From Nocardioides turkmenicus (GTDB lineage: Bacteria > Actinomycetota > Actinomycetes > Propionibacteriales > Nocardioidaceae), in the NCBI RefSeq assembly GCF_011045035.1, contig NZ_JAALAA010000006.1:62001-126000 (forward strand): DNA of 64,000 bases. Reading direction: 5' to 3'. Under the pieces are notes generated by a model. The model did not search any database. It was not told where the DNA came from and saw only the letters and a program-made list of their open reading frames with translations. This document shows positions 2-28,264 of this stretch, in pieces. Both the position numbers and the translations under genes were made by a program. Position 1 is the first letter of the stretch. Each line of letters opens with the position of its first letter.

Positions 2-829
2 ATCCTGCTGAGCCGGCTCTCGGAGAAGGTCACGCCGGAGGAGCGCTGGACGCTGCCCGGTGGCGGGATCGACCACGGCGAGGACCCGCGCGACGCGGTC
101 GTGCGCGAGGTCTACGAGGAGGCCGGGGTGCCGGTCGAGGTCGGTGTCGAGGCGCGGGTCTACTCCGTCCACCAGGCCAAGGCCTGGCGGCTGGGCCGAC
201 GGGTCAACTCCCACGCGATCCGGATCGTCTACGACGGCTGGGTGCCTCACGACGCTCCCGCGCCGCAGACGATGGAGGTCGACGGCTCCACGGCCGAGGC
301 GGCCTGGCTGCCGCTGGCCGCCGTCGTGAGCGGCGAGATCCCGACGTCTCCGCTGGTCACCGAGGCCCTGGAGGTGCACAAGCCGGCGCGGATGCAGCGG
401 CTGGCGGCGTACGCGTTCATCACCCGCACCTCCGACGACGCGATCCTCCTCACCCGGATCTCGCCGCTCGGCTACCACTCCGGCTCGTGGACGCTGCCCG
501 GTGGCGGGATCGACTTCGGCGAGCAGCCGCGCGAGGCGCTGGTGCGCGAGGTGGCCGAGGAGTGCGGTCTCACCTGCGAGGTCGGCGTCCTGCTCGACGT
601 GCACGACGTGAAGATCACCGGCACCGCCCCCAGCGGCCGTCACGAGGAGTTCCACGGCGTCCACCTCATCTTCGCCGCGACCGTGCCCGACGGTGCCGAG
701 CCGCGAGTGGTCGAGGAGGGTGGCACCACCGACGACGTAGGTTGGGTGACCCGTGACGAGCTGGCCGGCCTTCCACTCCTCGACGTGGTCACCGCGGCCC
801 TCGACGCCGAGAAGAAGGCAGCCTCCTAG
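2..829 (+). CDS. Tandem NUDIX hydrolase (5' end outside window)
   Basis: Two NUDIX domains lie in one reading frame that is already open at base 2, so the true start is upstream of the window. The first box (G-x5-E-x7-REVYEEAG) is at about 60-125 and the second (LPGGGIDFGEQ then REVAEECG) at about 490-570. Both keep the REUxEExG metal-binding glutamates, so both domains could hydrolyse nucleoside-diphosphate-linked substrates. The substrate cannot be told from the sequence. The two halves look like an internal duplication. The gene ends 196 bases before a convergent gene. Confidence 0.85.
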   Translation: MLLSRLSEKVTPEERWTLPGGGIDHGEDPRDAVVREVYEEAGVPVEVGVEARVYSVHQAKAWRLGRRVNSHAIRIVYDGWVPHDAPAPQTMEVDGSTAEAAWLPLAAVVSGEIPTSPLVTEALEVHKPARMQRLAAYAFITRTSDDAILLTRISPLGYHSGSWTLPGGGIDFGEQPREALVREVAEECGLTCEVGVLLDVHDVKITGTAPSGRHEEFHGVHLIFAATVPDGAEPRVVEEGGTTDDVGWVTRDELAGLPLLDVVTAALDAEKKAAS

Positions 830-20521: not shown

Positions 20522-22486
20522 ATGACCGAGACCATGAAGAAGACCGAGCGGATCGTACGTCCCCAGGGCGGCCCCGGTCCGATGGGCGCGGGCGGCGCGG
20601 TGGGGGACAAGGCGATGAACTTCGTCCCCTCGGCCAAGCGGCTGCTGCGACGGATGGCGCCCTACAAGATCCACGCCTTCGCGACTGTCGTCCTCGCTGC
20701 GATCAGCGTGACGCTGATGTCGCTGGGTCCGTGGCTGCTCGGCAAGGCGACCAACATCATCTTCGGCGGCGTCTTCTCCCGGGAGCTGCCGGCCGGGGTG
20801 ACCCAGGAGGAGGCGGTCGAGGGCCTGCGGGCGCAGGGTGACGACAAGCTCGCCGACATGCTCTCCGGGATGGACTACGTCACCCCGGGCCAGGGCGTCG
20901 ACTTCGACGCGCTGCGGAACGCCCTGATGGTGGTGCTCGCCGTCTATCTCGTCGCCTCGCTGCTCGCCTTCGTGCAGGGCTGGATCCTCAACTCGGTCGT
21001 CCAGGGCACCGTGAGGGGCCTGCGCGAGGACGTCGAGAAGAAGGTGCACAGCGTCCCGCTGTCCTACTTCGACAAGCAGCCGCGAGGCGAGCTGCTCAGC
21101 CGCGTCACCAACGACATCGACAACATCAGCCAGACACTGCAGCAGACGTTCAGCCAGGTGCTGACCGCGTTGTTCACGCTGGTCACGGTGCTGTTCATGA
21201 TGTTCTGGATCAGCCCGGTCCTGGCCCTGATCGCGCTGCTCGCGGTGCCGGTCTCGCTGGTGGTGACGGGTGCGGTGATGAAGCGGTCGCAGGGGCAGTT
21301 CGTGGCGCAGTGGCGCAGCACCGGCAAGCTCAACGGCCACATCGAGGAGACCTTCTCGGGCCACGACCTGGTCAAGGTCTTCGGTCGCCAGGAGGAGGTC
21401 GAGAAGACCTTCGCCGAGGAGAACGACAAGCTCTTCGACGCGGCCTTCAAGGCCCAGTTCATCAGCGGGATCCTGATGCCGCTGATGATGTTCGTCGGCA
21501 ACCTGATGTTCGTGGTGGTGTGCGTCGTCGGGTCCCTCCGGGTCGCCAGCGGCACCCTGAGCCTGGGCGAGCTGCAGGCCTTCATCCAGTACTCGCGCCA
21601 GTTCACCCAGCCCATCACCACCCTCGCCTCGATGATGAACCTGCTCCAGTCGGGTGTCGCGTCGGCCGAGCGTGTCTTCGAGCTGCTCGACGCCGAGGAG
21701 CAGTCGTCCGAGGTCGGCACACCCGGGACGGGAGCCGAGGGCGCCGGCGAGGTCCGCTTCGAGCACGTCTCCTTCGCCTACGACAAGGACAAGCCGCTCA
21801 TCGAAGACCTGTCGCTGGTGGCCCGTCCCGGGCAGACCGTCGCGATCGTCGGTCCGACCGGCGCCGGCAAGACCACGCTGGTCAACCTGATCATGCGGTT
21901 CTACGAGCTCGACGCCGGCCGGATCACCCTGGACGGCGTCGACATCTCCTCGATGCCCCGCTCCGACCTGCGCGGTCGCACCGGCATGGTGCTCCAGGAC
22001 ACCTGGCTCTTCGAGGGCACGATCCGCGACAACATCCGCTACGGCCGGCCGTCCGCGACCGACGAGGAGCTTCTCGAGGCGGCCCGGGCGACGTACGTCG
22101 ACAGGTTCGTGCACTCGCTCCCCGACGGCTACGACACGCTGATCACCGACCAGGGCGGCAACCTGTCGGCGGGCGAGCGGCAGCTGGTCACGATCGCCCG
22201 GGCCTTCCTCGCCGAGCCCTCGCTGCTGATCCTCGACGAGGCGACCTCCTCGGTCGACACCCGCACCGAGCTGCTGCTGCAGCACGCCATGGCGGCACTG
22301 CGCTCGGACCGTACGTCCTTCGTGATCGCCCACCGGCTCTCCACGATCCGCGACGCCGACCTGATCCTGGTCATGCGCGACGGCGCCATCGTCGAGCAGG
22401 GCAACCACGCCGAGCTGCTCGAGGCCGGCGGGGCGTACGCCGAGCTCTACCAGTCGCAGTTCAGCCACCCGATCGTGGAGGTCTGA
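20522..22486 (+). CDS. ABC exporter, permease-ATPase half B
   Basis: A 654-residue half-transporter. The ATG at 20522 follows a GGAGGCGGCGG site; upstream bases do not encode a sensible N-terminus. After a polar N-terminal tail of about 50 residues come six membrane segments, with an extended first outer loop (residues about 90-140). The ATPase has GPTGAGKTTLVNL, LSAGERQLVTIARAF and LLILDEATSSVDTRT with the catalytic Glu intact. It therefore supplies the canonical site of a heterodimer with half A, whose site looks degenerate. Confidence 0.9.
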   Translation: MTETMKKTERIVRPQGGPGPMGAGGAVGDKAMNFVPSAKRLLRRMAPYKIHAFATVVLAAISVTLMSLGPWLLGKATNIIFGGVFSRELPAGVTQEEAVEGLRAQGDDKLADMLSGMDYVTPGQGVDFDALRNALMVVLAVYLVASLLAFVQGWILNSVVQGTVRGLREDVEKKVHSVPLSYFDKQPRGELLSRVTNDIDNISQTLQQTFSQVLTALFTLVTVLFMMFWISPVLALIALLAVPVSLVVTGAVMKRSQGQFVAQWRSTGKLNGHIEETFSGHDLVKVFGRQEEVEKTFAEENDKLFDAAFKAQFISGILMPLMMFVGNLMFVVVCVVGSLRVASGTLSLGELQAFIQYSRQFTQPITTLASMMNLLQSGVASAERVFELLDAEEQSSEVGTPGTGAEGAGEVRFEHVSFAYDKDKPLIEDLSLVARPGQTVAIVGPTGAGKTTLVNLIMRFYELDAGRITLDGVDISSMPRSDLRGRTGMVLQDTWLFEGTIRDNIRYGRPSATDEELLEAARATYVDRFVHSLPDGYDTLITDQGGNLSAGERQLVTIARAFLAEPSLLILDEATSSVDTRTELLLQHAMAALRSDRTSFVIAHRLSTIRDADLILVMRDGAIVEQGNHAELLEAGGAYAELYQSQFSHPIVEV

Positions 22487-22490
22487 GGTA

Positions 22491-22518
22491 GCGGTGTGCG
22501 AGCTTGCGAGCACGCCGC
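22491..22518 (+). terminator. Hairpin after the ABC operon
   Basis: GCGGTGTGC (22491) and GCACGCCGC (ending 22518) can pair with one G-T wobble around a GAGCTTGCGA loop, 4 bases after the stop codon. Confidence 0.5.
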
Positions 22519-22546
22519 TAACCCGAAGAGGTCGGGCGACGGGCGG

Positions 22547-22599
22547 GTCGAGACCAACACAGTCCTAGGGAGTGCCGAGGGGACTGTGTTGGTTTCGAC
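22547..22599. terminator. 19-bp stem hairpin
   Basis: GTCGAGACCAACACAGTCC (22547-22565) pairs with GGACTGTGTTGGTTTCGAC (22581-22599) with one mismatch; the loop is 15 bases. It insulates the ABC operon from the efflux leader. It is followed directly by the 22601 repeat, so the whole block may be a mobile palindromic element used as a terminator. Confidence 0.65.
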
Positions 22600-22600
22600 A

Positions 22601-22616
22601 CGCTCGCTGGCGCTCG
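22601..22616 (-). repeat. Dispersed 16-mer repeat, inverted copy
   Basis: CGCTCGCTGGCGCTCG is the reverse complement of 20447-20462. Confidence 0.6.
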
Positions 22617-22632
22617 CGGCTCAACCAGCGGC

Positions 22633-22674
22633 AATTAAAACCCTTTGAACCCGGATCGCCTCGACGCCTACCGT
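22633..22674 (+). promoter_or_regulatory. Promoter of the efflux leader, WhiB7-like
   Basis: TTGAAC (-35, 22645-22650) and TACCGT (-10, 22669-22674) are 18 bases apart. AATTAAAA at 22633-22640 is a strikingly AT-rich block 4 bases upstream of the -35. WhiB7/WblC-activated promoters are known to need an AT-rich block just upstream of the -35. Assignment to WhiB7 is inference; no whiB gene is in the window. Confidence 0.55.
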
Positions 22675-22707
22675 TGAGGCACACGGGAAAGGAGGTGATC
22701 CGATCAG

Positions 22708-22746
22708 ATGAAGAACGATTGGATGCGTGAGGTGGCTGCTCGCTAG
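22708..22746 (+). CDS. 12-residue leader peptide (uORF) of the efflux operon
   Basis: ATG...TAG encodes MKNDWMREVAAR. It is preceded by GAAAGGAGGTGATCC at 22687-22701, a perfect 15-base complement of the usual 3' end of bacterial 16S rRNA. The start is 6 bases beyond it. Its last codons and stop lie inside an RNA stem (22734-22751). This is the layout of a regulatory leader peptide whose translation, or drug-stalled ribosome, decides which downstream RNA structure forms. Confidence 0.7.
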   Translation: MKNDWMREVAAR

Positions 22747-22867
22747 CAGCCCTCCAACGATGGATGGGGAGCTGGCAATCCAACGGCAGCCACCCGACCC
22801 GCAGGCGTACCGGACTCATCCACCGGGTCGGCCACCAGGCCCGCCTGCGGGTCGCCCCGTTTTCGGG
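22731..22867 (+). promoter_or_regulatory. Candidate transcription attenuator with competing stems
   Basis: Stem A: 22734-22740 with 22745-22751. Stem B: 22731-22739 with 22786-22794 (GGTGGCTGC/GCAGCCACC). Stem C: 22794-22801 with 22824-22831. Stem D: 22795-22807 with 22842-22854 (13 perfect pairs), with GTTTT 5-9 bases later. A excludes B, and C excludes D. D has the form of a terminator. Stems A and B both use the end of the leader-peptide frame, so a ribosome there would change the fold. Confidence 0.6.
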
Positions 22868-22892
22868 CGCGTGACTGGGCGAACCCAGGACA

Positions 22893-22909
22893 AGTTGCGT
22901 TTAGCAACT
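22893..22909 (+). promoter_or_regulatory. Candidate MarR operator
   Basis: AGTTGC-gttta-GCAACT is an inverted repeat with the TTGC/GCAA core common at MarR-family sites. It lies just upstream of the efflux gene, whose operon encodes a MarR protein. It is downstream of the leader promoter, so it would act as a road-block or serve a second promoter. Confidence 0.5.
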
Positions 22910-22963
22910 AAACGGAGGTACATTGGTTGCCGATATTCAACCAGTTCCTCGTGAGGTCCACAC

Positions 22964-24583
22964 TTGTCAGAGTCCCAGCAGCCTTCGCAGGCCATCGCGG
23001 CGCCGGAGATGACCCACCGCCAGATCATGGAGGTCCTCTCGGGCCTGCTGATGGCGCTCTTCGTCGCCATGCTGTCCAGCACGTCGGTCGCCAACGCCCT
23101 GCCGCGGATCGTCACCGACCTCGACGGCACCCAGGGTGGCTACACCTGGATCGTCGTCTCGAGCATGCTGGCGATGACCGCGACCACGCCGATCTGGGGA
23201 AAGCTCGCCGACCTCTACAACAAGAAGGTCCTGGTCCAGGTCGCGCTCGGCCTGTTCATCATCGGCTCGGCGATCTGTGGTCTGGCGCCGTCGATGCCGG
23301 TCATCATCACCGGCCGCGTCATCGCCGGCCTCGGCATGGGCGGCATCGTCGCGCTGATCCAGGTGATCATCGCGATGATCGTCTCCCCGCGTGAACGCGG
23401 CCGCTACTCCGGCTACATCGGCGCCGTCTTCGCGCTGGCCACGGTCATCGGCCCGCTCGTGGGCGGCGTGATCGTCGACTCCCCGGTGGGTTGGCCCGGC
23501 GTCTTCTACGTCGGCGTCCCGTTCGCCGTGGTCGCCTTCATCCTGCTGCAGAAGACCCTGCATCTCCCGCACGTACGCCGCGAGGTCAGCATCGACTACC
23601 TCGGTGCGTTCCTGCTGGTCGCCGGTGTCTCGATGCTGCTCATCTGGGTCACTCTGGGCGGCGAGTCCTTCCAGTGGACCTCGCTGATGTCGTACGTCCT
23701 GGTGGCAGGCAGCCTCGTCGTGCTCGCCGTCGCGATCCTGGTCGAGGGCAGGTTCGCCAAGGAGCCGATCATCCCGCTGCGGCTCTTCCGCGACCGCACC
23801 ATGGTGCTCTCCACGCTCGCCTCGTTCTTCGTCGGTGCCGGCATGTTCGGCGCGACGGTCTACCTGCAGCAGTACTTCCAGACCGCCCGTGGGATGACGC
23901 CGACCCACGCCGGCCTGATGTCGATCTGCATGGTGCTCGGGCTCTCCGTCGCCGGCATGGTCACCGGACGCCTGATCAGCTCGACCGGGCGCTGGAAGCG
24001 CTACCTGCTCTTCGGCGGTGTCATGCTGCCGATCGGGCTCTACCTGCTCAGCACGATCGACGAGCACACCAACCTCGCCCTGGTCGGTGCCTTCATGGCC
24101 GTCGTCGGCCTCGGCGTCGGTGCCACCAACCAGAACCTCGTGCTCGCGGTGCAGAACAACCTCGACAACAAGGACATGGGCGCCGGCTCCTCGGTCGTCG
24201 CCTTCTTCCGGTCGATGGGCGGCTCGATGGGCATCGCCGCGCTCGGCGCCGTGCTCTCCCACCGGGTCGAGGACGTCATCACCGACGGCATCCCCGACCT
24301 GGTGGCCAACGGACAGGTCACGCGCGACGAGCTGCAGAGCCTGCAGAGCGGTGGGCTCGCCGACCCGGCGAGCATGCCTGCACCGATGCAGGCCCTCTAC
24401 GAGCACGCCTTCGCCGTGGCGACCGCCGACCTCTTCCTGGTGGCCATCCCGTGCGCCCTGCTCGCGCTGGTCGCTATCGTGGGCATCAAGGAGGTCCCGC
24501 TCAAGACGACCGTCGACGATCTCCCCGAGGAGAAGGCCCCCGCTGAGGCCGAGATCGAGGCCGAGGGAGCCCTGCGGACATGA
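22964..24583 (+). CDS. MFS drug efflux transporter, DHA2 (EmrB/QacA) type
   Basis: A 539-residue, 14-segment drug:H+ antiporter. LSSTSVANALPRIVTDL (TM1), WGKLADLYNKK (motif A) and VIGPLVGGVIVD (motif C of exporters) identify the family. The TTG at 22964 has GTGAGG 7 bases upstream; an ATG at 23009 (MTHRQIMEV) is an alternative. It is co-transcribed with marR, with a 4-base overlap (ATGA). The long structured leader with its own leader peptide suggests induction by ribosome-targeting drugs, which would also be the likely substrates. Confidence 0.88.
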   Translation: MSESQQPSQAIAAPEMTHRQIMEVLSGLLMALFVAMLSSTSVANALPRIVTDLDGTQGGYTWIVVSSMLAMTATTPIWGKLADLYNKKVLVQVALGLFIIGSAICGLAPSMPVIITGRVIAGLGMGGIVALIQVIIAMIVSPRERGRYSGYIGAVFALATVIGPLVGGVIVDSPVGWPGVFYVGVPFAVVAFILLQKTLHLPHVRREVSIDYLGAFLLVAGVSMLLIWVTLGGESFQWTSLMSYVLVAGSLVVLAVAILVEGRFAKEPIIPLRLFRDRTMVLSTLASFFVGAGMFGATVYLQQYFQTARGMTPTHAGLMSICMVLGLSVAGMVTGRLISSTGRWKRYLLFGGVMLPIGLYLLSTIDEHTNLALVGAFMAVVGLGVGATNQNLVLAVQNNLDNKDMGAGSSVVAFFRSMGGSMGIAALGAVLSHRVEDVITDGIPDLVANGQVTRDELQSLQSGGLADPASMPAPMQALYEHAFAVATADLFLVAIPCALLALVAIVGIKEVPLKTTVDDLPEEKAPAEAEIEAEGALRT

Positions 24584-25065
24584 CAGCTGACGAGCCCGTC
24601 GCGGACGACTCGATCGACGACACCAGGGTGGAGTCGCTGATCCGGCTGGAGGCCGAGGTCGGCGTGCTCATGCGGCGAGCGAAGCGGGCCATGCGCGACC
24701 GCGGCCGGATGGTCCACCCCGACCTGCCGCCGGGCGGCTACATGCTGCTGACCTGGGTCGCCGAGCACGGTCCGCTGCGTGCCTCCGCCCTGGTCGACGC
24801 ACTCGGCATCGACAAGGGTGCCGTCAGTCGGATGGTGCAGACGATCGTCGACCTCGGCCTGCTCGAGCGTCACCCTGATCCCGAGGACGGCCGGGCCAGC
24901 TTGGTCTCGGTGACCGCCGAGGCGCGCGAACGGCTCGACCGTGTCGCGCGGGAGCGCCGCGTACGTTTCAACGACCGGCTGGCCGACTGGAGTCCCGGCG
25001 ACATCGACCGGCTCAGCGCTATGCTTTCCAGATACAACGAAGCCCTCGAACGCCAGGGCTCCTAG
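24580..25065 (+). CDS. MarR-family regulator
   Basis: A 161-residue winged-HTH protein. The recognition region ASALVDALGIDKGAVSRMVQ lies near residues 70-90, and DPEDGRASLVSVT is the wing. The N-terminal helix is long and acidic. Its start overlaps the efflux stop (ATGA), so it is probably an autoregulated repressor of the efflux operon acting at the inverted repeat at 22893-22909. Confidence 0.85.
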   Translation: MTADEPVADDSIDDTRVESLIRLEAEVGVLMRRAKRAMRDRGRMVHPDLPPGGYMLLTWVAEHGPLRASALVDALGIDKGAVSRMVQTIVDLGLLERHPDPEDGRASLVSVTAEARERLDRVARERRVRFNDRLADWSPGDIDRLSAMLSRYNEALERQGS

Positions 25066-25166: not shown

Positions 25167-25853
25167 GTGAGCGATCTCATCGATACCACCGAGATGTACC
25201 TTCGCACCATCTATGAGCTGGTCGAAGAGGGAATCGTTCCGCTGCGCGCCCGCATCGCCGAGCGCCTGCACCAGTCGGGTCCCACGGTCTCGCAGACCGT
25301 GGCCCGGATGGAGCGCGACGGTCTGCTGACGGTCGAGGGCGACCGCCACCTGCAGCTCACCGACGAGGGCCTGCGGCTGGCCACCCGGGTGATGCGCAAG
25401 CACCGGCTGGCCGAGCGCCTGCTCACCGACGTCATCGGTCTCGACTGGGAGCTCGTCCACGAGGAGGCGTGCCGCTGGGAGCACGTCATGTCGGAGACCG
25501 TGGAGAAGCGCCTGCTCGACCTTCTCGGCGACCCGACCGAGTCGCCCTACGGCAACCCGATCCCCGGCCTCGACGAGCTCGGCGGCAAGCCCGCGGACGA
25601 GGACTTCATGGCCGGCGTGCAGTCGCTGACCGCTGCCGCGGGCTCCGAGCGCGCCACCGTCCTGGTGCGCCGCATCTCCGAGGAGATGCAGAAGGACGAG
25701 TCGCTGATGAGCGCCCTGCGCCGGGTCGGCGCGACCCCGGACCAGACCGTCGCCATCAAGGCGACCCCCGACGGGGTGCTGCTCGGCTCGGGTGGCGAGA
25801 CCGCAGAGATCATCCCCGAGGCCGCGGACCACATCTTCGTGAAGGCTCTCTAA
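25167..25853 (+). CDS. DtxR/IdeR-family iron-dependent repressor
   Basis: A 228-residue three-domain metalloregulator. The winged HTH (RIAERLHQSGPTVSQTVARM) is at residues 28-47. The metal-binding dimer domain has KHRLAERLL, WELVHEEA and ACRWEHVMSE (Cys-x2-Glu-His of the DtxR regulatory site). The C-terminal SH3-like domain (VLVRRISEE to the end) is present, as in IdeR and DtxR, not in short MntR. It should repress iron-uptake genes when Fe(II) is bound. No full iron box is seen upstream. It is probably monocistronic. Confidence 0.88.
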   Translation: MSDLIDTTEMYLRTIYELVEEGIVPLRARIAERLHQSGPTVSQTVARMERDGLLTVEGDRHLQLTDEGLRLATRVMRKHRLAERLLTDVIGLDWELVHEEACRWEHVMSETVEKRLLDLLGDPTESPYGNPIPGLDELGGKPADEDFMAGVQSLTAAAGSERATVLVRRISEEMQKDESLMSALRRVGATPDQTVAIKATPDGVLLGSGGETAEIIPEAADHIFVKAL

Positions 25854-27430: not shown

Positions 27431-28264
27431 TCACCGGGATCGGCCGGGTGTGCGCGACGGGGCCTGTCCTCGCGGCAGCGGGGGCACCGGGCCGCCGTTG
27501 GAACCGCCGTTGGAACCGCCGTTGGGGCCGCCGTTGGAGCCGCCGTTGGAGCCGGCCCCCTTGGTCGTGCCCCTGGCCTGCCGGGCGTCGTCGCCCGGGG
27601 GTGCCGGGCGGGGCACGACGCCGTCCTCGAGCAGCTGGCTCGCCATCAGCGCCGCCTGGGTGCGGTGGCTGACGCCGAGCTTGGCGAGGAGTCCGGTGAT
27701 GTGGTTCTTGACGGTCTTCTCCGCCAGCACCAGCCGGTCGGCGATCTGCCGGTTGGAGATGCCCTCGGCGAGCAGGACCAGGATCCGCCGCTGCTGCGGG
27801 GTCAGCTCGGCGACGACCTCGTGCATCCGGCGGCGCTCCTCGACGTTGTGGACCACCTTGGCGGCCGCCTCGGGGTCGAAGAGGGTGTGGCCGCTGGCGA
27901 CCAGGCGTACACCGGAGACCAGGCTCGACGCCTCGATCTGCTTGAGCACATAGCCGGCCGCACCGGCCATGATCGCCTGGCTCATCACCTCGTCCTCGGC
28001 GTCGGTGGCCAGGATCATGCAGCGGATGTCGCTCTTCATCGCCAGCGCCTCGCGGCACAGCGCGACCCCGGAGGAGTCGGGGAGGTGAGCGTCGAGGATG
28101 AGTACGTCAGGGCGGAGCGTCGCGATCAGCGGGCGTGCCTCGGCGGCGGTGCGGGCCTCGCCGACGATCTCGATGTCGGACTCCCGCTGCAGCACCGTGC
28201 GCACACCGACACGCACGACGTCGTGACCGTCGGCCAGCAGAACGCTGATCACCGCGTCACCCAC
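27431..28264 (-). CDS. LuxR/NarL-type response regulator with a Gly-Asn repeat tail
   Basis: A 277-residue protein. The receiver has the phosphorylation Asp in DVLILDAHLPD (about residue 58), a Thr/Lys pair (LATD, YVLKQ) and the LuxR HTH (LTPQQRRILVLLAEGISNRQ, then KTVKNHITGLLAKLGV) at about 155-210. The second acidic residue of the usual DDH motif is Gly (ADGH), so Mg2+ binding may be weak. The C-terminal 65 residues are disordered and contain five GSNG/GPNG units from a 12-base minisatellite. No histidine kinase is adjacent. Confidence 0.85.
   Translation of the reverse strand: MGDAVISVLLADGHDVVRVGVRTVLQRESDIEIVGEARTAAEARPLIATLRPDVLILDAHLPDSSGVALCREALAMKSDIRCMILATDAEDEVMSQAIMAGAAGYVLKQIEASSLVSGVRLVASGHTLFDPEAAAKVVHNVEERRRMHEVVAELTPQQRRILVLLAEGISNRQIADRLVLAEKTVKNHITGLLAKLGVSHRTQAALMASQLLEDGVVPRPAPPGDDARQARGTTKGAGSNGGSNGGPNGGSNGGSNGGPVPPLPRGQAPSRTPGRSR
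27494..27553. repeat. 12-base minisatellite, five units, in the response-regulator gene
   Basis: GCCGTTGGAACC-type units repeat five times (27494, 27506, 27518, 27530, 27542). On the coding strand they give the Ser/Pro-Asn-Gly-Gly tail of the regulator. Units differ at one or two bases. Confidence 0.85.

Follow-up and report, generated by a model that had tools for sequence, protein, structure and literature searches.

What purpose is served by the short, densely organized piece of DNA that precedes a drug efflux gene in the actinobacterium Nocardioides turkmenicus? The stretch analysed here, the window, comprises 64,000 nucleotides of a 5.3 Mb assembly. A preliminary description, made from its letters, noted within some 330 bases an AT-rich block, a -35/-10-like pair, a strong ribosome site, an open reading frame (ORF) of 12 codons, stems over the end of that ORF, a terminator-like stem of 13 pairs, an inverted repeat, a DHA2 gene and marR. 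All of these are present in the sequence; they had been read together as a complete antibiotic-responsive attenuation leader of the efflux gene, of a class unfamiliar to the author. The element does belong to a described class: positions 22681-22860 are a member of the Rfam family RF02471 (Ms_IGR-5, "Actinobacteria sRNA", that is, small RNA), which the window copy matches over the whole model (1-184 of 184) with 96.2 bits, well over the gathering cut-off of 45, and an E-value of 2.8e-20. Its RNA strand also folds better than shuffled sequence (z-score -5.8; none of 200 shuffles equally good). As argued below, this RNA is very probably a gene of its own, in which, on the evidence of paired changes, bases of the ORF are predicted to build helices. 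The parts of the RNA gene, in which SD stands for a Shine-Dalgarno-type ribosome site, are as follows.

22633-22640, plus strand: AT-rich block AATTAAAA, immediately 5' of the RNA gene's -35-like hexamer, read from the sequence.
22645-22674, plus strand: promoter-like pair of the RNA gene, TTGAAC (22645-22650) and TACCGT (22669-22674), spacer 18 bases.
22681-22860, plus strand: Ms_IGR-5 RNA, from the covariance-model match.
22682-22685 (5' strand) with 22726-22729 (3' strand), plus strand: predicted helix P1, from paired changes and the tree; not in the energy-based folds.
22686-22701, plus strand: ribosome site SD1, GGAAAGGAGGTGATCC, from complementarity to the tail of 16S ribosomal RNA (rRNA).
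22708-22746, plus strand: 12-codon ORF MKNDWMREVAAR, ATG to TAG, from the sequence and the conserved start and stop.
22721-22725 (last two bases of codon 5 and the whole of codon 6) with 22817-22821 (loop of the terminator-like hairpin), plus strand: predicted pseudoknot K, from paired changes and the tree.
22729-22734, plus strand: putative second site SD2, GAGGTG, codons 8-9 within the ORF, three sense codons ahead of the stop, from conservation.
22731-22739 (end of the ORF) with 22786-22794 (GCAGCCACC), plus strand: predicted helix P3, from paired changes and the minimum-energy and consensus folds.
22742-22776 (22742-22747 with 22771-22776), plus strand: predicted local hairpin P4 spanning the stop codon, from the minimum-energy fold; the weakest helix.
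22795-22854 (22795-22807 with 22842-22854), plus strand: terminator-like stem-loop P5, 13 pairs, from paired changes and folding.

A genome survey with the RF02471 model at an E-value threshold of 1e-3 found matches for the phylum in 70 of 396 genomes (35 above the cut-off), for the window's class in 249 of 394 (247 above it) and for its genus in 117 of 118; the 14 named control genomes that were searched gave none. Nearly all matched genomes hold one copy. Two genus genomes carry a second, weaker match (G700:C157:10631-10923, which overlaps the first, and G789:C58:35279-35355, which spans only model positions 110-178), and one class genome (G466) has two matches. In another genus of the window's family (g2), 11 of the 12 listed genomes are without a match while the other listed family members have one, so the RNA may have been lost there. 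A search of phages with the RNA returned a single short match (48 bases, 81% identity, E-value 4e-3), and a search of plasmids returned none. Among the phylum matches, 49 of the 70 were analysed, the window included, and the remaining 21, which are weak, were left out. The ORF and next-gene counts are drawn from 107 homologues, again with the window included (86 of its class, 21 of other classes).

The first part of the question, whether the RNA serves the pump or stands by itself, can be addressed from its surroundings. Directly 5' of the RNA, 164 of 174 class homologues carry a promoter-like TTGNNN-16..19-TANNNT, which turns up in 0.6% of shuffles; these 174, of which 107 are from the window's genus, are what remains of 195 loci after removal of the 21 from other classes. 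An A-rich block sits at -43 to -40 in the same set; A/T reaches 87-98% at positions -43 to -41, and its mean share between -100 and -61 is 28%. The promoter and terminator labels rest on such comparison, because a generic scan of 22480-23000 reported no consensus promoter of the sigma-70 type and no terminator with a U-run, the P5 stem being followed only by CCCCGTTTT. Behind the RNA, by a home-made gene caller, the next gene is convergent at 53, co-directional at 46 and not called at 8 of the 107 loci of the first set, and the corresponding numbers for the 83 loci outside the window's family are 48, 27 and 8. Nineteen downstream translations, judged by eye, include pyridoxamine-phosphate-oxidase-like, citrate synthase, nitrobindin-like, RNase-Z-like, histidine-kinase-like and arginine-deiminase-like genes and a response regulator. 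The pump and its MarR are absent from the stretches around the first 29 homologues taken from other genomes (L009-L024 and L026-L038, with L019 having almost no downstream sequence), and the pump was seen at none of the 83 loci outside the family, in stretches of 1.5-2 kb.

The pump, which begins outside the RNA gene, brings its own set of features.

22894-22908, plus strand: operator-like repeat of the pump gene, GTTGC-GTTTA-GCAAC (GTTG-N7-CAAC), from conservation in the genus.
22895-22924, plus strand: pump promoter-like TTGCGT-18-TACATT, overlapping the operator-like repeat, from the sequence and aligned Nocardioides.
22964-24583, plus strand: efflux gene of the DHA2 family, major facilitator superfamily, start TTG at 22964, from NCBIfam matches below their cut-offs.
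24580-25065, plus strand: marR, MarR-family regulator, from weak NCBIfam MarR-type matches, below cut-offs.

The best NCBIfam models for the pump are OtrB, Tcr3 and EmrB, all below their cut-offs; marR adjoins it, and the operator-like inverted repeat stands 5' of it. This arrangement resembles the MarR-controlled DHA2 pump SCO4121-SCO4122 of Streptomyces coelicolor, likewise a block of pump and marR with an operator-like repeat upstream, a likeness that concerns the pump and not the RNA. In the genus, 76 of 107 loci have the pump 3' of the RNA on the same strand, 241 to 1285 bases beyond the RNA's first base; at the other 31 it is missing from the stretch examined, which for loci L123-L151 extends only 1.5 kb past the RNA, so that a more distant pump would go unseen. 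A repeat of the form GTTG-N6-9-CAAC lies between RNA and pump at all 76 pump loci (with N7 in 74), at 0.9% in shuffles and at one of the 31 loci without pump; the second copy of L072 (L147) was removed from the promoter and operator counts. The TTG and TACATT of the pump promoter-like sequence are conserved in six of six aligned Nocardioides. In Nocardioides MAG-46 (L122) the RNA stands about 2.5 kb upstream of the pump on the same contig and the operator region with its repeat remains at the pump, and in another genus of the family (L076) the pump match starts 945 bases past the RNA with a similar repeat 5' of it. Because the repeat accompanies the pump at every one of the 76 loci, stays with it in MAG-46 and is present in L076, the pump gene most likely has a candidate MarR-type promoter of its own. 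The promoter-like sequence in front of the RNA, the diverse or convergent genes behind it and the pump's own operator-like repeat, taken together, make it very likely, as far as comparison of sequences can tell, that the RNA is a separate unit rather than the pump's leader. The efflux-specific leader of the preliminary description is rejected on these grounds.

The second part of the question concerns the ORF. SD1 faces the last 16 bases of 16S rRNA with 15 Watson-Crick pairs and one G-U pair; the genome's own 16S gene ends in GGATCACCTCCTTTCT (read in locus L117), and we take the mature end to be at ...UUUCU. Only two copies of the 14-mer AAAGGAGGTGATCC exist in the assembly, one in SD1 and the other antisense to the 3' end of 16S rRNA. 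Among the 107 homologues, the ORF begins with ATG in 47, TTG in 39 and GTG in 11 (97 in total), with CTG, ATT or ATC in nine and with no start in L097. One of the first three start codons occupies the same position in 85 of the 86 class members, L051 having ATT, and the start keeps its position in all 158 rows of an enlarged alignment from which L051 is absent and in which L147 was kept (157 distinct sequences). The CTG, ATT or ATC starts of L099, L100, L102, L105, L106, L108, L109 and L114, nearly all of other classes, and of L051 follow the same very strong ribosome site; a rare start codon is also found in infC. GAGGTG is present in 107 of 107 homologues (a home-made motif finder demands it, and every locus passed), and a stop follows exactly three codons later in 105, the exceptions being L060 and L069; the stop is TAG in 94, TGA in 9 and TAA in 4. 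In published ribosome profiling (Ribo-seq) of Mycobacterium abscessus and M. smegmatis, ribosomal reads on the Ms_IGR-5 homologues are reported (PMC4974804). Because start and stop keep their positions and because of this coverage, the ORF is very probably translated.

The peptide itself behaves differently. Residues at codons 5-7 and 10-11 vary along with the pairing partners of their bases (codon 7 being R, C, S, E, Y, G or P), and for this reason the peptide is not what is kept; codons 2-4 are highly variable. The length of the ORF and a C-terminal E-V-[AT] recur, with E-V fixed at the DNA level as GAG GTG. In these alignments, what is conserved is position, start and stop, and the peptide sequence is not conserved beyond the constraints of RNA pairing. 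The GGUG of P3 is invariant in the 158 rows while its partners vary (column 186, for example, is T in 26 and C in 132), which fits a second role of GAGGUG (SD2), and we infer that this motif may be a second site for the anti-Shine-Dalgarno sequence of the ribosome. When the stop codon occupies the A site, six bases separate GAGGUG from the last sense codon, and a gap of six bases is a typical spacing for a ribosome site.

The helices that would involve these ORF bases were examined in alignment A2, which holds 69 of the 86 class members (15 close relatives of retained rows, L051 among them, and the two longer members L059 and L069 were omitted). For P1, P3, P4, P5 and four pairs of K taken together, the paired share of cells is 95.5%; shuffles give 88.5% (as high in none of 500), and versions slid along the alignment give 31-41%. 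Changes on both sides are found in three of the four pairs of P1, in four of the nine of P3, where 98.9% of cells are paired, and in 10 of the 12 counted pairs of P5; in P4, 81% of cells are paired. Pseudoknot K joins columns 41-45 (codons 5-6) with columns 217-221, in the loop of the terminator-like hairpin. Its two sides read GGAC and GUCC in 118 of the 158 rows and GGAU and AUCC in 38; the remaining two rows show a G-U pair (L066) and an alignment shift (L194). Pair 45:217 of K forms in 140 of 156 sequences, where shuffles give 109. In L036 (CGAC:GUCG) and L038 (CGAU:GUCG) a G-C pair is altered on both sides. All 21 members of other classes, aligned separately as A3 with their loop words chosen by hand at the aligned place, have at least four of six pairs, and 13 have all six.

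Trees of the RNA point the same way. With the K columns masked, one tree places the changes of column 44 on five branches; column 218 changes on these five as well, and on one more. On a second tree, with more columns masked and the score taken as the branches of the 5' column that its partner shares, K has 6 of 6 for 44:218 and 7 of 17 for 45:217, P1 has 3 of 5 for 3:48 and 1 of 1 and 4 of 9 for other pairs, and P3 has 3 of 4 for 58:180 and 2 of 4 and 3 of 10 for others. Paired changes thus support the predicted helices P1 and P3 and the predicted pseudoknot K, each with one strand drawn from the ORF. The covariation of the stems that the preliminary description proposed to check in homologues is found, and the conservation of the peptide, beyond that imposed by pairing, is not. 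The energy-based folds contain P3 and P5, and for the window P4 as well; K, being a pseudoknot, cannot show in a minimum-energy or consensus fold.

Two other helices were tried and set aside. P2, which pairs SD1 with codons 5-6 in the minimum-energy and consensus folds and is rejected here, has double changes in one of four pairs in A2, with 7 of 500 shuffles scoring as high; the branches it shares on the trees number 0 of 5 or 1 of 6 (p 0.21). The first helix of Rfam's own model, in which the family is typed as an sRNA gene, pairs SD1 with the end of the ORF (14-19/55-60); its cells are paired in 92.3%, equal to shuffles, and it has double changes in none of six pairs, whereas P1 and K carry them. 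An ORF is not mentioned in the output of the Rfam search. In a search that was not exhaustive, no antiterminator competing with P5 was found: K, P3 and the terminator-like stem are mutually compatible, and neither arm of P5 is taken up by P1, P3 or K. As a separate observation, a run like GCGAAUCC 5' of P3 (A2 columns 167-175, window about 22775-22782) is well kept, and its column 170, outside every helix, is A in 99% of the 158 rows; it is a possible contact or target site.

How might these parts work together? The reading we prefer, to which we give roughly even credence as a model, is that Ms_IGR-5 is a free-standing, ribosome-gated RNA, in which the position of the ribosome sets the fold and the RNA acts in trans. 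SD1 would load ribosomes onto the 12-codon ORF whose bases are predicted to form the helices of the RNA, and since both would compete for these bases, a ribosome on the ORF and the fold should be mutually exclusive. At initiation the ribosome would block or open P1 and K, and a ribosome terminating at the stop codon, with GAGGUG six bases ahead of its P-site codon, would block or open P3 and P4. The RNA would in this way report ribosome loading and act in trans, with pairing segments exposed or hidden or with its stability changed. A bolder version, tentative and in our judgement rather doubtful, is that Ms_IGR-5 works as an attenuator that stands alone, with no gene attached, and senses the supply of ribosomes throughout the actinobacteria: SD1 would pair with the whole 16S tail, GAGGUG would park the ribosome at the stop, and initiating and terminating ribosomes would unlock different halves of the pseudoknotted fold, so that ribosome loading or an antibiotic block would become an RNA signal in trans.

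Several observations weigh against a free-standing RNA gated in this manner. P1 is only four pairs long and is absent from both the minimum-energy fold of the window and the consensus fold, in which the 5' end and SD1 are paired elsewhere, including in P2. The P3 pair 55:183 shares none of 12 branches; the K pair 45:217 is unpaired in 15 of 68 A2 sequences, and in the class there is weak support for a sixth K pair, 40:222 (52 of 155 against 43 in shuffles). The rejected P2 does beat shuffles on 157 sequences (pair 18:44, 146 against 132, 0 of 1000), shuffles that ignore kinship, and the trees were built on about 200 bases, which makes their p-values rough. Since the pump follows on the same strand at 76 of the 107 genus loci, some read-through from the RNA into it is also possible.

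That last arrangement, with ORF, helices and terminator-like stem all 5' of the pump, is what favours an attenuator leader of the DHA2 gene, in which a drug-stalled ribosome on the ORF would permit transcription past the stem into the pump. Such a leader shares its parts with ribosome-mediated attenuators of the trp, erm and whiB7 type, which likewise have a short ORF, a strong ribosome site and helices of ORF bases 5' of a terminator-like stem; Ms_IGR-5 differs from them in needing no regulated gene downstream, in the lack of a competing antiterminator among the structures searched and in its unconserved peptide. With the pump unseen in the stretches at 31 genus loci and at all loci outside the family, with a convergent next gene at about half of the 107 loci (53), with the operator-like repeat at every pump locus and with pump and operator region set apart from the RNA in MAG-46, we regard this explanation as highly improbable; what survives of the complete attenuation system of the preliminary description is the conserved short ORF, the very strong ribosome site and the predicted helices made from ORF bases, and what is not supported is their service to the efflux gene. 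A ribosome decoy, whose pairing with the entire 16S tail would hold 30S subunits so that the level of the RNA tunes free ribosomes and the ORF merely releases them, would suit the rarity of the SD1 14-mer, found otherwise only as 16S antisense, and the promoter-like sequence with its A-tract. It would leave the paired changes that conserve the helices of ORF and terminator loop unexplained, and is in our view unlikely.

Two further explanations divide the RNA from its reading frame in opposite directions. A classical non-coding, base-pairing sRNA with an incidental frame agrees with the listing of Ms_IGR-5 as an sRNA by Rfam and in three genome papers; start and stop kept amid changes of letter (the start in all class members but L051, with its ATT), the interchange of TAG, TGA and TAA and the reported Ribo-seq coverage count against it and make it quite unlikely. 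Conversely, a small mRNA acting through its 12-residue peptide would account for the recurrent ORF length and C-terminal E-V-[AT]; E-V is set at the DNA level, codons 5-7 and 10-11 follow their pairing partners and codons 2-4 vary freely, and we hold this to be very unlikely. The ribosome-gated RNA that we favour has partial likenesses among known systems. The dual-function sRNAs SgrS/SgrT and RNAIII are also small RNAs with an ORF; in Ms_IGR-5, unlike these, the ORF bases are predicted to build helices and the sequence of the peptide is not kept. The attenuator-derived, trans-acting rnTrpL of Sinorhizobium is likewise a short RNA that includes a tiny ORF and a terminator and may act elsewhere, but it derives from the trp leader, whereas Ms_IGR-5 shows no parental operon.

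The surroundings of the locus offer some further observations. A palindromic stretch at 22535-22630, with an ABC gene on one side and the RNA gene on the other, is a dispersed repeat with 73 matches in its own genome, itself counted, and repeats resembling it lie downstream of the RNA in L122. A DtxR-type iron regulator (25167-25853) is found near the RNA in the window and also in L069, L077, L079, L083 and L086, and may mark an old shared neighbourhood. On the minus strand, at 27431-28264, a response-regulator-like ORF, judged by eye, has a Gly-Ser-Asn-rich repeat in its C-terminal part.

The family itself was already known. In the accessible parts of the genome papers it is an sRNA without a stated role: in S. 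lividans it is listed among sRNAs with support from RNA sequencing, a short separate transcript being reported (PMC8079986), and in S. avermitilis it is classed with the sRNA units rather than with the cis-regulatory ones, again with a short separate transcript (PMC8780764). A search of the literature, as far as the texts could be consulted, found no study of the mechanism of Ms_IGR-5, and the ORF, the pseudoknot and a ribosome-gated reading did not turn up in it. If the RNA is indeed translated, pseudoknotted and opened or closed by ribosomes, it would amount to a translation sensor conserved widely across a phylum from which many of our antibiotics come, and it would also be, to our knowledge, the first attenuator-like device that requires no gene behind it.

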